5,659 bases of DNA from Candidatus Fermentibacterales bacterium (GCA_016928495.1 JAFGKQ010000071.1:1-5659), one strand, 5' to 3'; positions 1-5,659 are shown, counted from the stretch's first letter. Numbers and translations: made by a program. The notes: generated from the sequence alone by a model not told the origin.

Positions 1-917
1 CGGCGATCCTCTCGGGCGCCATGATAAAGATCTCGTTCTTCGCAATGGTCAGGATCGTGCTGGAGTTCGGCGGGGACTACCTGATGGGGCTGCTGATGTG
101 GATAGGGGCCTTCACGGCTCTGGCCGCCGTGATCAGCGCCCTGGCCCAGACCGACGTGAAGAGGCTGCTCGCCTACCACTCTATCTCTCAGCTCGGCTAC
201 ATCCTTGCCGTGTTCGGGGCCGGCACCGCCGTGGGCCTGACCGCCTCGTTCATGCATGCCCTCAACCACGCCCTCTTCAAGAGCCTTCTGTTCCTAACCG
301 TGGGGGCGGCCGTCAGCTTCACGGGTGAGCGGAGCCTCAACCGGATCTCCGGCATGGGCAGCAGGATGCCGGTCTTCGCCGCGGCCTTCTTCGCTGCCGC
401 CCTGTCCATCTCCGGCATACCTCCCTTCAACGGCTACGCCAGCAAGGCCTTCATCACCCTGGGCATGAAGGGCACCGCCGCCTACCCCCTGCTCTGGGTT
501 ACCGGTTTCCTGACCATGGCCAGCTTCATCAAGCTCGGCAGGATATTCCTGCCGGCCTACGGGAGTGAGGAGGCCCGGCAGGGACCGGGACCGCTGCCCG
601 GGGCACTGGAGACCGCCGTCGTGGTGGCGCTAGCCCTGATGTGTCTGGGATCGGGGGTTTTCGGGACGCCGGTCGCGGGCTTCCTTCACTCGATGCTCCA
701 CGGCCGGGCACTCGAGGCAGCCCCCTCTCTCTTCTCGGCAGGGAGTCTTCTGAAGACCCTGGTGCTGGTGCCGCTGGCGATCGCCGCCTATCGCCTGGTG
801 CTCACGGAAACGGGCCGCGGCCTCTCCGGAAGGATCAGGGCGCTGGCGCCACAGCTCAGGATGGTGCTGGTCTTCTTCTTCGTCGGCCTGCTGGCCTTCG
901 CCGCCGTGGCGTACTGA
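1..917 (+). CDS. Proton-translocating antiporter-like membrane subunit (MrpD / hydrogenase-4 B / NuoM-N superfamily), 5' partial
   Basis: This is the C-terminal part of an integral membrane subunit that moves H+ or Na+ across the cytoplasmic membrane as part of complex I, a Mrp antiporter or a membrane-bound hydrogenase. The reading frame is open from base 3 through the ATG at 21, and the residues before that ATG (AILSGA) fit the family, so the true start is left of the window. Numbered from that internal ATG, visible motifs are QTDVKRLLAYHSISQLGYI at about 43-61, with the conserved loop lysine, HALNHALFKSLLFL at about 79-92, and SISGIPPFNGYASK at about 129-142. Roughly eight hydrophobic segments follow one another, and the last ends at the extreme C-terminus before TGA at 915-917. 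The wording AYHSISQ plus GIPPFNG resembles Mrp subunit D and Mbh/Ech-type hydrogenase subunits more than classical NuoN, but the exact complex cannot be decided without the left-hand neighbours. It converges on the operon to its right. Confidence 0.9.
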   Translation, partial: AILSGAMIKISFFAMVRIVLEFGGDYLMGLLMWIGAFTALAAVISALAQTDVKRLLAYHSISQLGYILAVFGAGTAVGLTASFMHALNHALFKSLLFLTVGAAVSFTGERSLNRISGMGSRMPVFAAAFFAAALSISGIPPFNGYASKAFITLGMKGTAAYPLLWVTGFLTMASFIKLGRIFLPAYGSEEARQGPGPLPGALETAVVVALALMCLGSGVFGTPVAGFLHSMLHGRALEAAPSLFSAGSLLKTLVLVPLAIAAYRLVLTETGRGLSGRIRALAPQLRMVLVFFFVGLLAFAAVAY

Positions 918-1146: not shown

Positions 1147-2844
1147 TTAACGTACCCCCAAGCAGCGAGCCATACTCGAGGAGCCGACACTGTCCAGATC
1201 CAGAATCCGGGTCGACACTGCCTCGACGGCCGGGCGGTGCGCGACGACGAGCACGATTGAACCCGCCTCGGCCAGCTCGCGAACGGCTCTCAGGATCAGC
1301 TCCTCCGTGACCATGTCGAGTTGCGATGTCGGCTCGTCGAGAAGGGCTACCAGTGGCCTCCTCAGCATCAGAGCCCCGAGGACGAGCCGCTGTCTCTCGC
1401 CGCCGGACAGGTTCCCACCTCCTCCGCTCACGTCCATCTGACCTTCCGCCCTGGAGCTGAACCTGGCGGAGAGGTCCAGTCGCTCGATGAGATGGTCGAG
1501 TTCCTCCGTAGTCACTCCTCTGCCGGCCAGGATCTCGAGATTGGATCTGAGCGACCCCTTCCACAGCCTGGCCTCCTGGGGCAGATACACGGCATCCCTG
1601 CCAATTGCCATGAGCCCATCGATGCGTTCTCCATCAAGGAGCAGCTCTCCTCTGGACAGCGGATACAGACCGTACATGGACCTGAGCAAAGTGGTCTTCC
1701 CGCAGCCGCTCCTGCCACGAATCGCCAGTATGTCGCCTCGCCCGATCGAGAAGCTCACCCCGTCGAACAGGGTCTTGCCGTCCAGGTCGAATCCGAGTCG
1801 ACGGGCTTCCAGGGTCTCGGCCCGGGGTGATACGGTAGTCCCGGGCTCGATCGCGCGCCTGGGCAGCACCAGCATCTGGACCATCCGATCCAGGGAAGCG
1901 AGCGAGGACTGGATCCTCCCAACGGCTGTCGCCGTACCCGTCAGTCTGCCGGCAAAGACCCACAAGTAGCCGAGGAAGGAAACGACCGTACCGAGGTTGG
2001 CCGTAGCCATCGACGGAGACTTCTCGGCGTAGACGAGGAATCCCGTCATCCCTCCCAGCAGGACCAGGAACATGAGGAACAGGAGCAGCATCGACCTGAT
2101 CGAGTTCCGGAGGTCGAGGTGCGTGGTCTGTCTTATCAGTGACTCGGCTCTGTCGCAGACCCTCTCTTCCGCACCGAACGCTCTCACCTGAACCTGAGAC
2201 GAGACGATATCCGTAGTGAACCCCTCGAGTAGCGACCATCTCTCCATGACCTGTGCGACAAGAGCGCGCATTCGCCTCGAGACCAGGACGCCCAGGGGTA
2301 CCAGGATGGTTCCGGCACCGACGAGAACCAGGGCGACTCCGGGAAGGAGGTGAACGAGCATGATCAGACTGAAGGCCATGACGAGTGCCGATTCCAGCAG
2401 GCCGGGGATCTCGATGGAGAAGAGCCCTGGCACGGCCTTGAGCTCCGCGCTCATTCTCCTGTTGAGGTATCCCGCTTCATGGCACTCCAGCGCACGGAGG
2501 TCGCATTCGCTGATCTTCCTGAACACGACCGGCATCCACTGATCGATGAAGGACCTGGAGAAGACCTTCTGAAGGACCTGATTGGCGAGCTGGACACAGA
2601 CGGCCCCCAGCCCTACCAGCAGAAGGAGCCTGACACCGGAGAAGGTGACAGTCATCGACCGCCCGTCGCTCAGGATGCCGTCCAGGGACTGCCCGAGAAC
2701 AAGCGGGGCAATCCCGCACACGAACGCTCCTCCGAGCGCCACAAGCATGATCAGGAGCAGGACGAACCGTCCGCTCCGCAGAGACGACGCGATCAGACTC
2801 CTCCTGATCGAGGAAGGACTCAGGCTCTCATCACACGGGATCAT
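1147..2844 (-). CDS. ABC exporter, fused transmembrane and ATPase domains (peptide/lipid export type)
   Basis: This 565-residue half-transporter would dimerise in the cytoplasmic membrane and use ATP to export a substrate. The N-terminal half carries about six membrane segments (near 27-46, 72-93, 149-168, 169-187, 252-272, 283-302). The ATPase half is complete: Walker A GRSGCGKTT at 377-385, Q-loop glutamine at 423 in YLPQEARLWKGS, signature LSGGERQ at 479-485, Walker B LVALLDEP at 498-505 with the catalytic glutamate, D-loop SQLD, and switch histidine at 536 in VAHRP. No C39 peptidase domain precedes the membrane part. The chosen ATG shares ATGA with the stop of the lipoprotein gene, a classic coupling overlap, with GGAG two bases upstream. 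A GTG at 2886 is an alternative; it has AAGGA nine bases upstream and would add 14 residues. The substrate is inferred only from the neighbouring radical SAM genes to be a modified peptide; the ABC exporter assignment itself is firm. Confidence 0.93.
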   Translation of the reverse strand: MIPCDESLSPSSIRRSLIASSLRSGRFVLLLIMLVALGGAFVCGIAPLVLGQSLDGILSDGRSMTVTFSGVRLLLLVGLGAVCVQLANQVLQKVFSRSFIDQWMPVVFRKISECDLRALECHEAGYLNRRMSAELKAVPGLFSIEIPGLLESALVMAFSLIMLVHLLPGVALVLVGAGTILVPLGVLVSRRMRALVAQVMERWSLLEGFTTDIVSSQVQVRAFGAEERVCDRAESLIRQTTHLDLRNSIRSMLLLFLMFLVLLGGMTGFLVYAEKSPSMATANLGTVVSFLGYLWVFAGRLTGTATAVGRIQSSLASLDRMVQMLVLPRRAIEPGTTVSPRAETLEARRLGFDLDGKTLFDGVSFSIGRGDILAIRGRSGCGKTTLLRSMYGLYPLSRGELLLDGERIDGLMAIGRDAVYLPQEARLWKGSLRSNLEILAGRGVTTEELDHLIERLDLSARFSSRAEGQMDVSGGGGNLSGGERQRLVLGALMLRRPLVALLDEPTSQLDMVTEELILRAVRELAEAGSIVLVVAHRPAVEAVSTRILDLDSVGSSSMARCLGVR

Positions 2845-3980
2845 CTCTCCACGAACCTTATGCGGTACAGCTCCTGGTTCCCCCACTCGTCCGTTTCCTT
2901 GACCAGAATGCCGTACGGGGTGACGCTCGTCTCGATCAGGCTGGACTCGGAATCCAGGCCGGAGGCCACGGCTTCGTAGAGGACCTCCTCCGTGGCCGTT
3001 GAGATAACGAGGAAGGTCGGGGCCGCCTCTGTTCCCAGGCGAACCCAGAGGTTCCCGAGGGAATCGATACCCAGTTCAGACACCTGGGGCAGGTACTCGC
3101 CGGGGCTTACCTCTGCCACGCGGTTCCGGAGCAGAGGGCCTGATGCCATGGGCGATCCCTGGCTCGCTTCGATATCCGTCACCCGGACCGGTTGGGCGTT
3201 CTCACAGAACTCGAACACGACCTGCCCTTCGCAGTCGTAACCCCTGATGCTCACAAGGTCGGGCTCGGTCCTGGAGACGTAGACTACCCCGGACGACAGG
3301 TCCGATGCGTAGCGGTAGCGAGTCAGTGCCTCGTAGAGCGAGTTCGAGACATCCATGGGATCCAGGGTTATGGAAGACCCCTCGAGTGTTGCAACGGGTT
3401 CGGCTCCGTCCTGGAACAGACACACCGAGAGTTGTGCTTCGAGATCCCCGTGCTCGTTGATCGAGCTCTCGGCGATGAGACCCACATGCCCTCCCCCGGC
3501 TGATGCTGCGAGGGCCACCGGCAGGTTGGCGGCGAAGAATGACCGATCGGAGAGGTACTCGCCGTCCGTCGAGAAGCACACCGTCCCCAGGGCGGCGTCG
3601 ATAACCCGGACCGTCCCCCCGGAAACGACGAAGCTCACGGGGTTGAGAAGGCAGCCGGGACCCTCACCGGACTCCCCGAAGAAGGTCCACTCCCCACCGG
3701 GATCGAGCCTGACGACTCTGCGGCCGGCGCAGTCGAGCACGAACAGACCCTCTTCAGCAAGCTGGAACCCGTCTATCGAATAGACCGAATCGTAGTCGTC
3801 AGATCCGACAGACAGCAGAGTCTCGCATGGAGTGAGGAGAAGACGAGTCGGAGGCTCCAGGGCGCCGGTTGCTGGTCCGGAGCCGCCACACCCCGGACCG
3901 GATATCGAGAACGCGATGACGGCGAGAGCAACGGCTCTCAGGACTCCGGTCTCTGCTCTACGGTCACTGTCGCTCCACAT
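2841..3980 (-). CDS. Lipoprotein with a six-bladed beta-propeller (NHL-like)
   Basis: This 379-residue precursor has a lipoprotein-type signal: basic residues near 7-15, a hydrophobic stretch AVALAVIAFSIS at 17-28, then GPGC with the likely lipidated cysteine at 31, followed by GGSG. The box is loose (GPG-C rather than LAG-C). The mature part is rich in beta strands with repeated blade-like units. The unit around 81-140 has LFVLDCAGRRVVRLD, then FGESGEGPGCLLNP, then VRVIDAALGTVCFSTDGEYL; this arrangement with GEGP is typical of the '6-bladed beta-propeller' family often found as lipoproteins. A later blade holds GIDSLGNLWVRL at 304-315. Seven further cysteines could form disulfides outside the cytoplasm. 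The frame opens upstream to a GTG at 4109, but starting there would bury the signal peptide behind 43 residues, so ATG 3980 is preferred; AGGAG lies 11 bases upstream at 3992-3996. It overlaps the upstream enzyme by 43 bp. Its role is unknown; binding of the exported product is a guess. Confidence 0.85.
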   Translation of the reverse strand: MWSDSDRRAETGVLRAVALAVIAFSISGPGCGGSGPATGALEPPTRLLLTPCETLLSVGSDDYDSVYSIDGFQLAEEGLFVLDCAGRRVVRLDPGGEWTFFGESGEGPGCLLNPVSFVVSGGTVRVIDAALGTVCFSTDGEYLSDRSFFAANLPVALAASAGGGHVGLIAESSINEHGDLEAQLSVCLFQDGAEPVATLEGSSITLDPMDVSNSLYEALTRYRYASDLSSGVVYVSRTEPDLVSIRGYDCEGQVVFEFCENAQPVRVTDIEASQGSPMASGPLLRNRVAEVSPGEYLPQVSELGIDSLGNLWVRLGTEAAPTFLVISTATEEVLYEAVASGLDSESSLIETSVTPYGILVKETDEWGNQELYRIRFVER

Positions 3981-5257
3981 ATCGCACTCGACTCCTGGCT
4001 CACCATGTAGTTCGCGTACATCTGCAAACCGAGAAGCTCTTCCCTCGACAGCATCCTGCTCGGGAAACACAGAGGCTCCTCCCTGTCCTGCTCCCACCAG
4101 TCTCGACACTCAAGGTAGCCGAGCCTGGTCGCATTCTCGTACATATAGGTTCCCGGGTAGAGCTTGAGACAACCGAACTCGATGGCGGCAGCTCCGCTAT
4201 CCGCCAGCTCCACAGCCTTCCTGATCCTCTCCATCACTATGCCTACCGTGTCCCCCGGAAGCCCGATCATCAGTGACACCGCAACCCGTATCCCGAGGTC
4301 TGCAGCCATCTCCACGAGCCTTGCGACCGGGACTTCAGGCAGTCTCTTTCCAATCAGCCGCGACAGGCTCTCATCGAAGCACTCCAGCCCGAACTGGATC
4401 TCCCTGCATCCGGAATCCGCCATGAGCCTCAGAATGGACTCTTCGGCCGAGTCGAGCCTGGACTCACAGAACCACCGAAGGTCGTGATTGGCGAGGACAT
4501 CGCACATACGTCTGGTTCTCTCAGCACCCGAAGTGAATGCGTCATCGAGTATGGACAGCCCGGAGGCACCGTGCTCCTCGACCAGATCAGCCAGCTCCTC
4601 CGAGACATCCTGCAGGCTCCTCGGGTAGTACCTGCCGGAGTGAATCACCTGAGTCGCGCAGAACCTGCATCTCCCCGGACAGCCTCGCGACGTGACGATG
4701 GTGAACGGGAAGCGATAGATGCGGAGATCGTAGCTGCTCCGGTCGGGCCTGAGAGGAGTGCCGCGGGCGCTTCGGAAACCGGGGCCTCGGGCATCAAGAA
4801 TGCAGGACTTGCCTAACCGGGTCACGCCGGGTCCCGACACAGGACTCCCTGATGTGACTGCCCTCAGCAGCCCCGGGAGAACAGCCTCCGCAGGCCCCCT
4901 TACGACTACTGCGGCGCCGATCGATCTGGCGCAGGACTCCGGGGCGCAGGTGGCATGCGGACCGCCGATTACTGCGGGCACGATCGAGCAGGATGATTCC
5001 CGGATGGCCTGCAGCAGCCGTCGCGCGTAGCATGCAGACTCAGTGCAGAGAGAGAGACATATCACGTCCGGGTCGGCGGCGAGTATCTCCAGTGCAGCCT
5101 CCCGAGGCGTGCGGCCCCCGTCTGAGACGATAGGAATGTCATGGAGGGCAACCTCCCCGAGACCGGACTCCAGAATGCTCGCAGAGAGGTATAGAAGGCC
5201 GAGCGGCGGCATCTCGAGAACACGGCCCCTGCTAAGGCTTACAAGCGAGACTCTCAC
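3938..5257 (-). CDS. B12-binding-type radical SAM enzyme
   Basis: This 439-residue cytoplasmic enzyme should use a [4Fe-4S] cluster to cleave S-adenosylmethionine and do radical chemistry, probably with cobalamin. The N-terminal 150 residues match the B12-binding fold of this class: MPPLGLLYLSA near 16-26, GGPHAT at 98-103 and VVRGPAE near 118-124 (usually VVRGEGE). The canonical DxHxxG cobalamin-ligand motif is absent, which is common in radical SAM members. The radical SAM core has CPGRCRFC with cluster cysteines 193, 197 and 200, then LDDAFT, FGLECFDE, GLPGDT at 332-337 and YPGT near 367-370. A GTG start at 5257 is chosen because GGAGGA sits at 5261-5266 and conserved residues begin right after it; the open frame runs on to 5335, but those 26 residues are low-complexity Ser/Thr/Gly. 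It overlaps the SPASM gene by 26 bp. The family members are typically methyltransferases, cyclases or ring-forming enzymes; the substrate here is inferred to be a peptide from its neighbours. Confidence 0.92.
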   Translation of the reverse strand: MRVSLVSLSRGRVLEMPPLGLLYLSASILESGLGEVALHDIPIVSDGGRTPREAALEILAADPDVICLSLCTESACYARRLLQAIRESSCSIVPAVIGGPHATCAPESCARSIGAAVVVRGPAEAVLPGLLRAVTSGSPVSGPGVTRLGKSCILDARGPGFRSARGTPLRPDRSSYDLRIYRFPFTIVTSRGCPGRCRFCATQVIHSGRYYPRSLQDVSEELADLVEEHGASGLSILDDAFTSGAERTRRMCDVLANHDLRWFCESRLDSAEESILRLMADSGCREIQFGLECFDESLSRLIGKRLPEVPVARLVEMAADLGIRVAVSLMIGLPGDTVGIVMERIRKAVELADSGAAAIEFGCLKLYPGTYMYENATRLGYLECRDWWEQDREEPLCFPSRMLSREELLGLQMYANYMVSQESSAICGATVTVEQRPES

Positions 5258-5659
5258 GGTTCCTCCAGAGCTCCCTGTGGAGCCAGCAGTAGGGGTAGTC
5301 GCCAGAGAGGCTGCCTGTCGCCCAGTAGGCCGCACTCCTGCAACCCCCTGCGCAAAGAGATGAGATGTCGCAGTCCCTGCAGGAAGCCAGGTTCTCCACG
5401 GTCAGCTTCCGCACCGCTGCCAGGACTCCCGAGTGCATCCAGATTTCCATCAGGCTCTCGGTGACGGAAGCCGGTTCCACTCTCCCCAGTTCGAGCGCCG
5501 CATCGAGCAGCGACGAACAGGGGTAGACTCGCCCATCGGGCTCCAGGTGAAGGAGGCCTGTCCCAACGAAGCAGAATCTCTTTCGACCGCCCTTCGCGCC
5601 CCGGATCCTCCCCTCTTCCAAGACTCCGTCACCGAATACCGACATGACACCGGTTCTTC
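5232..5659 (-). CDS. Radical SAM/SPASM enzyme, C-terminal SPASM part only (5' partial)
   Basis: This is the C-terminal auxiliary-cluster domain of a SPASM radical SAM enzyme; its radical SAM core would lie beyond the right edge. The frame is open through the window end, so the ATG at 5645 is internal or undecided. Numbered from that ATG, the seven-cysteine SPASM pattern is complete: C25-x12-G38-x4-C43 (containing LEPDGRVYPC), then C89-x2-C92-x5-C98-x3-C102 (CRDCDISSLCAGGC), then C120 in DYPYCW. ELGRV and SLMEIW between the cysteine groups are also typical. Such enzymes bind two extra [4Fe-4S] clusters and modify peptides or proteins (PqqE, sulfatase-maturase and RiPP crosslinking families). 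The gene ends with TGA at 5232-5234 and overlaps the next enzyme by 26 bp, so it is the first visible gene of the operon. Without the core domain, a sulfatase-maturase role cannot be excluded, but no sulfatase is present here. Confidence 0.88.
   Translation of the reverse strand, partial: RTGVMSVFGDGVLEEGRIRGAKGGRKRFCFVGTGLLHLEPDGRVYPCSSLLDAALELGRVEPASVTESLMEIWMHSGVLAAVRKLTVENLASCRDCDISSLCAGGCRSAAYWATGSLSGDYPYCWLHRELWRNRESLACKP
5261..5266 (-). promoter_or_regulatory. Ribosome binding site GGAGGA for the B12-type radical SAM gene
   Basis: On the - strand the sequence reads GGAGGA-ACC-GTG, placing a strong Shine-Dalgarno core three to four bases before the GTG at 5257. It lies inside the 3' end of the SPASM gene. 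This site decides the start of the downstream gene and suggests translation is coupled to the gene before it. The spacing is slightly short. Confidence 0.7.

Follow-up and report, generated by a model that had tools for sequence, protein, structure and literature searches.

A candidate radical SAM peptide-modification operon with a propeller lipoprotein in Candidatus Fermentibacterota

We analyzed a 5,659-bp stretch of DNA from a Candidatus Fermentibacterales bacterium (hereafter the window), which is the complete contig C155 of a genome (G000) of 2.3 Mb and 81% completeness from the phylum Candidatus Fermentibacterota. Its minus strand carries four genes, encoding the C terminus of a SPASM radical S-adenosylmethionine (SAM) enzyme, a B12-type radical SAM enzyme, a propeller lipoprotein and an ATP-binding cassette (ABC) exporter, with successive overlaps of 26, 43 and 4 bp, the last being ATGA. 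The gene coordinates agree exactly with an earlier note made from the sequence alone, which had described four overlapping genes on one strand and read them as an operon for making, exporting and handling a radical-modified peptide. The identities it gave to the SPASM, B12-type and ABC proteins were borne out by curated models; of the SPASM enzyme, the window contains just the final 141 residues. We consider it very probable that these four genes form the 3' portion of a six-gene operon of the type specifying ribosomally synthesized and post-translationally modified peptides (RiPPs), running from precursor and PqqD-like protein through SPASM enzyme, B12 radical SAM enzyme and propeller to ABC exporter (Table 1).

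The SPASM fragment has no start codon and its 5' end lies beyond the end of the contig. Screening the truncated radical SAM genes of the same genome, we found that contig C25 (locus L127) ends in the 323-residue N-terminal half of such an enzyme. The minus strand of the window begins with the same eight bases that end C25, GAAGAACC, and the reading frame continues across them, while the other 45 of the 46 contig ends compared overlap the window end by at most 3 nt. C182, C73 and the other truncated radical SAM genes did not fit the window end, and a 25-base search of the genome found no longer overlap with it. The joined enzyme has 462 amino acids and can be aligned over its full length with other SPASM enzymes from the phylum; against its nearest relative, the junction shows neither gap nor repeat, and the spacing from GGEP to the P-C cysteine of the SPASM domain is 191 residues, compared with 172-242 in 32 relatives. 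On the eight-base overlap and domain logic, the placement of C25 and C155 as neighbours appears well supported, although not proven.

Upstream of the SPASM gene on C25 lie a PqqD-like gene, sharing 35 bp with the start of the SPASM gene, and a 38-amino-acid (aa) open reading frame (ORF). No other site in the region has a Shine-Dalgarno pairing as strong as that of this ORF (-13.3 kcal/mol), and 1% of shuffled sequences contained an ORF of 30-60 aa with a comparable site. Extending the contig thus uncovered the short precursor-like ORF that the earlier note had expected upstream of the SPASM gene. The 38-aa peptide matched no family, and its single clear homologue in the phylum is a 40-aa peptide, MIEKPAEIGIEYVDPGSTVKCIAFYILCGLLNFAAMPPQE, in genome G003 of another family (E = 1.9e-4, 49%), which occupies the same position: it has a Shine-Dalgarno site of -12.4, and its downstream neighbours are a PqqD-like gene (30% identity) and a SPASM N terminus (36.5% identity). 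The G003 PqqD counterpart scores 19.3 bits, under the cut-off. Both precursors have the core YxLCGLLN[YF]A, and its one cysteine, a potential thioether donor, is kept in both. Over 38 codons, they differ at 14, 13 and 24 first, second and third positions, respectively; as third positions differ most, the ORF behaves as expected of a selected coding sequence. A search of 42 genomes with the SPASM N-terminal half alone returned the G003 precursor locus as the only close relative, and a profile built from both peptides found no third precursor in the phylum. Hairpins between the genes after the precursor were only moderately better than shuffles in the two genomes (z = -1.9 and -1.4). The 38-aa ORF is probably translated and encodes the likely substrate of the operon's enzymes. 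As a separate observation, the G003 orthologue of the SPASM gene (L241, G003:C15, 1-110) has its reading frame interrupted about 109 nt from the contig end, reflecting either assembly error or decay.

Table 1. Features of the window and of the contig placed upstream of it
Feature	Location	Strand	Evidence or context
SPASM radical SAM peptide maturase, C-terminal 141 residues	window 5657-5232 (feature 5232..5659)	-	PF13186, TIGR04085
B12-binding-domain radical SAM enzyme, 439 aa, GTG start	window 5257-3938	-	PF04055, PF02310
NHL-type beta-propeller, predicted extracytoplasmic lipoprotein, 379 aa, ATG start	window 3980-2841	-	profile of 17 relatives
ABC exporter, fused transmembrane and ATPase domains, 565 aa, ATG start	window 2844-1147	-	PF00664, PF00005
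Antiporter-type membrane subunit, unrelated to the operon	window 3-917	+	Proton_antipo_M
Candidate precursor ORF, 38 aa, TTG start, MALKPAEEAVIRVEDGPAKSIILYLLCGLLNYAGSGPE	L127 1922-2038		upstream of PqqD-like gene; Shine-Dalgarno site, G003 homologue
PqqD-like gene	L127 2112-2378		upstream of SPASM gene; PF05402 at 26.7 bits (gathering score 23.4)
SPASM radical SAM enzyme, N-terminal 323 residues	L127 (G000:C25) 2344-3312	+	8-nt in-frame end overlap with window

The C-terminal piece of the maturase scores above cut-off for both PF13186 (35.5 bits) and TIGR04085 (46.9 bits, cut-off 27), and the complete SPASM motif with its seven cysteines can be read from it (CX12GX4C, CX2CX5CX3C and C). When both halves were tested against NCBIfam models, including StsB, PapB and SCIFF, all equivalog cut-offs were missed by far: the C-terminal half scored 30.4 of 625 bits for StsB and 31.1 of 340 for PapB, and the N-terminal half 35.3 of 625 for StsB. 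The models for PqqE, PqqD and mycofactocin gave the same outcome, with no equivalog cut-off reached (35.7 and 57.3 of 381 bits for the two halves against TIGR02109; 15.5 of 46 bits against TIGR03859).

The B12 enzyme matches PF04055 (67.5 bits) and PF02310 (50.6 bits) and has a CX3CX2C motif (CPGRCRFC), while the DxHxxG cobalamin motif is absent. ApyD, HpnJ and AprD4 are among its relatives, but all equivalog cut-offs were missed; the best NCBIfam model was ApyD, with 111.5 bits of a 750-bit cut-off, and the RiPP C-methyltransferase model TIGR03975 gave 48.7 of 281.85. Its best solved relative is AprD4, an apramycin biosynthetic oxidoreductase (6fd2). Searching the phylum returned no orthologue (best match 31%), and a search of 84,980 genomes with close-relative patterns of this single query gave 69 pattern matches, none of them a relative. 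We regard the protein as a putative C-methyltransferase or other tailoring enzyme, and only as putative because methylation is common in its class, yet other reactions exist.

Alone, the propeller protein matched no Pfam or NCBIfam family and no solved structure. A profile of 17 relatives, however, matches the solved NHL propellers of TRIM2, TRIM71 and Thin (best E = 4e-43, TRIM2), in line with the propeller lipoprotein of the earlier note. The N terminus has a signal sequence and a noncanonical lipobox (GPG-C) whose cysteine, Cys31, is invariant in all 17 aligned relatives. An AlphaFold model from three sequences was unusable (mean predicted local distance difference test score 42). The family is greatly expanded in the phylum, with about 507 matches in 42 genomes, or some 12 per genome with a maximum of 33, and its members are sometimes found beside ABC ATPases or other Walker-A proteins.

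In the ABC protein, PF00664 and PF00005 are the only strong matches. A C39 peptidase domain is absent, and the cut-offs of the peptide-exporter models were missed (113 of 853 bits for TIGR03796 and 101.6 of 523.85 for TIGR01193). Relatives of 37-45% identity occur in three other genomes of the phylum, compared with a best match of 26% outside it, and the relatives outside the phylum have no SPASM or propeller neighbours. The exporter belongs to a clade seen only in Fermentibacterota.

The earlier note had tied its reading to the recurrence of the four genes elsewhere, and this proved true of three of them. SPASM, propeller and ABC genes lie on one strand in the window and at five further loci in four other Fermentibacterota genomes (L068 in G041, L074 and L079 in G033, L076 in G008 and L157 in G032), while a B12 radical SAM gene within the module was found in this genome only and is its distinctive addition. 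As in the window operon, the SPASM gene comes first and is accompanied by one or two propellers and an exporter; L157 differs in having separate ATPase and permease genes, placed before the propeller. Six more loci (L124, L139, L141, L145, L151 and L155) have SPASM and propeller genes without an adjacent same-strand exporter. With about 507 propeller matches in about 110 Mb, a same-strand propeller is expected within 4.2 kb downstream of about 1 in 100 SPASM genes. Among the eight top SPASM matches in other genomes, picked by SPASM similarity alone, three had such a propeller by the profile. A fourth had a divergent lipoprotein that shares 49% identity with one from a module, and the association is therefore more than chance.

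Short cysteine-containing ORFs with Shine-Dalgarno sites precede the SPASM gene at L068 (42 aa), L139 and L145 (67 aa) and L157 (40 aa), all unrelated in sequence to the precursor described here. Thus homologous loci do have small ORFs, whose consistent absence the earlier note had named as counting against a peptide substrate, and no sulfatase-type substrate, its other contrary case, was seen. PqqD-like genes or domains occur at L141, L151, L154, L157 and L070.

The 67-aa cysteine-rich ORF (L139, 5108-5311; L145, 7005-7208) is nearly identical in two genomes, lies just upstream of a SPASM gene and two consecutive lipoprotein genes, the second encoding a propeller, and is likely another precursor family. 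At L068 (G041:C58), a perfect 18-nt inverted repeat, TGGGATAGGAGTCCCTAC (17846-17863 and 18042-18059), flanks the cysteine-rich candidate precursor (17898-18026) and could be part of an invertible or mobile cassette or form an RNA stem. At L076 (G008:C75, 3-4942), the SPASM gene is apparently cut at its 5' end beside a transposase-like ORF and the ABC gene is only a fragment; the module is probably a decayed copy. A conserved cassette in six genomes of the phylum (L146, L147, L148, L149, L150 and L156) combines three SPASM-type radical SAM genes in a row with a B12 radical SAM gene and a gene encoding about 217 aa. Tandem pairs of SPASM-type genes are found in many genomes of the phylum (L171-L177 and others), several of them after a short gene of about 90 aa; where tested, at L141 with a similar SPASM pair followed by a propeller, this gene was PqqD-like.

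The window operon is very probably a RiPP-type cluster with a SPASM radical SAM enzyme and PqqD, and the propeller is its unusual part. Its tailoring enzymes, both of the radical SAM type, share one operon of overlapping reading frames with the ABC exporter. Like the SPASM systems with PqqD or a RiPP recognition element (RRE), namely, sactipeptides, ranthipeptides, pyrroloquinoline quinone (PQQ) and mycofactocin, it combines a short ribosomal precursor and a PqqD-like protein with a SPASM maturase that has an RRE-like N terminus and the full seven-cysteine motif. It differs from them in matching no equivalog, in the single-cysteine hydrophobic core, and in the additional B12 radical SAM enzyme and propeller. 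ApyD-type RiPP pathways likewise include a B12-binding radical SAM enzyme among their peptide genes, and the polytheonamide pathway (PoyB/PoyC) is another RiPP pathway with cobalamin radical SAM enzymes; compared with proteusin-type RiPPs, however, the 38-aa precursor is not proteusin-like and matches no NHLP or Nif11 leader. The propeller has the NHL profile match, signal sequence and lipoprotein-position cysteine in common with NHL and six-bladed propeller lipoproteins (the PF17170 group; TRIM NHL domains) but is not recognised by Pfam. By the tests made, the operon falls in no named RiPP class.

We infer both chemistries, the direction of transport and the role of the propeller. The PqqD-like protein and the RRE-like N terminus of the SPASM enzyme would bind the leader (KPAE...VEDG), and the SPASM enzyme would cross-link the core, KSIILYLLCGLLNYAGSGPE, by radical chemistry. 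The link is most likely a thioether formed by the conserved Cys27, since cysteine is what the phylum's candidate precursors, unrelated in other respects, have in common. A second modification, probably C-methylation, would come from the cobalamin radical SAM enzyme, and the ABC exporter may carry the product from the cytoplasm. The propeller lipoprotein, lying beyond the inner membrane, may bind the product for receipt, immunity or passage. As to the central proposal of the earlier note, a radical-modified peptide is supported by the PqqD gene and the conserved small ORF.

Several observations weigh against a six-gene operon with a dedicated propeller. The join of C25 and C155 rests on eight bases and domain logic. 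The six-gene order has been seen once, as the G003 locus ends inside the SPASM gene, with its frame broken, before any B12, propeller or ABC gene. Neither the window nor the interval between the precursor and the window on L127 contains a leader peptidase gene; in many RiPP clusters, the peptidase is encoded outside the cluster, and it is not a defining requirement. Finally, most propellers examined have no SPASM neighbour, and the presence of one here may be less specific than it appears. Since the draft genome is fragmented and the two contigs are short, they might not be adjacent at all, and the window operon might have another upstream part; the in-frame overlap, longer than at any other contig end compared, the domain spacing inside the family range and the seamless meeting of the two SPASM halves make this very improbable. 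Only slightly more credit goes to the possibility that the radical SAM enzymes modify the propeller itself, as in pairs of radical SAM enzymes and lipoproteins, and that the small ORF is incidental. Propeller lipoproteins do adjoin SPASM genes at about a dozen loci of the phylum and the one in the window has several cysteines, but only Cys31 among these is invariant in the relatives, and the SPASM relatives that match the corresponding model score far under its cut-off, TIGR04133 (73.3 and 101.4 of 425 bits). The small ORF, moreover, is shared by two families, with its sequence, position and Shine-Dalgarno site conserved, and is accompanied by a PqqD chaperone, and the scarcity of SPASM neighbours across the propeller family speaks against a general enzyme-substrate pairing.

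The main alternative is that the peptide is not a secreted antimicrobial but the precursor of a conserved cofactor or signal, similar to PQQ or mycofactocin, with the propeller as its extracytoplasmic user or receptor. The C-terminal core is well conserved between the two families, which is unusual for arms-race bacteriocins and fits a signal or cofactor better; PqqD with SPASM follows PQQ- and mycofactocin-type logic, and the propeller is encoded beside the exporter. The conservation, however, is known from two precursors only, the candidates in the other propeller modules are unrelated and cysteine-rich, the cut-offs for PqqE, PqqD and mycofactocin were all missed, and a dedicated ABC exporter is present. 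On balance, we consider a cofactor or signal unlikely, though clearly less so than the two preceding explanations.

In Fermentibacterota, for which no RiPP report was found in the literature searched, the RiPP-type operon offers experimental access to a presumed peptide product through its candidate precursor, its recognition protein and its two radical enzymes. Propeller lipoproteins emerge as a recurring, unexplained partner of radical SAM peptide genes, a link on which we found nothing relevant in the open literature searched. Tentatively, and with somewhat less than even confidence, we propose a phylum-specific module, a Fermentibacterota RiPP family with a dedicated propeller lipoprotein as core component that acts as receptor, immunity protein or user of a conserved single-cysteine hydrophobic peptide modified by SPASM and cobalamin radical SAM enzymes. 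If the propeller does have such a role, it would be a component new to the RiPP classes in the literature searched.

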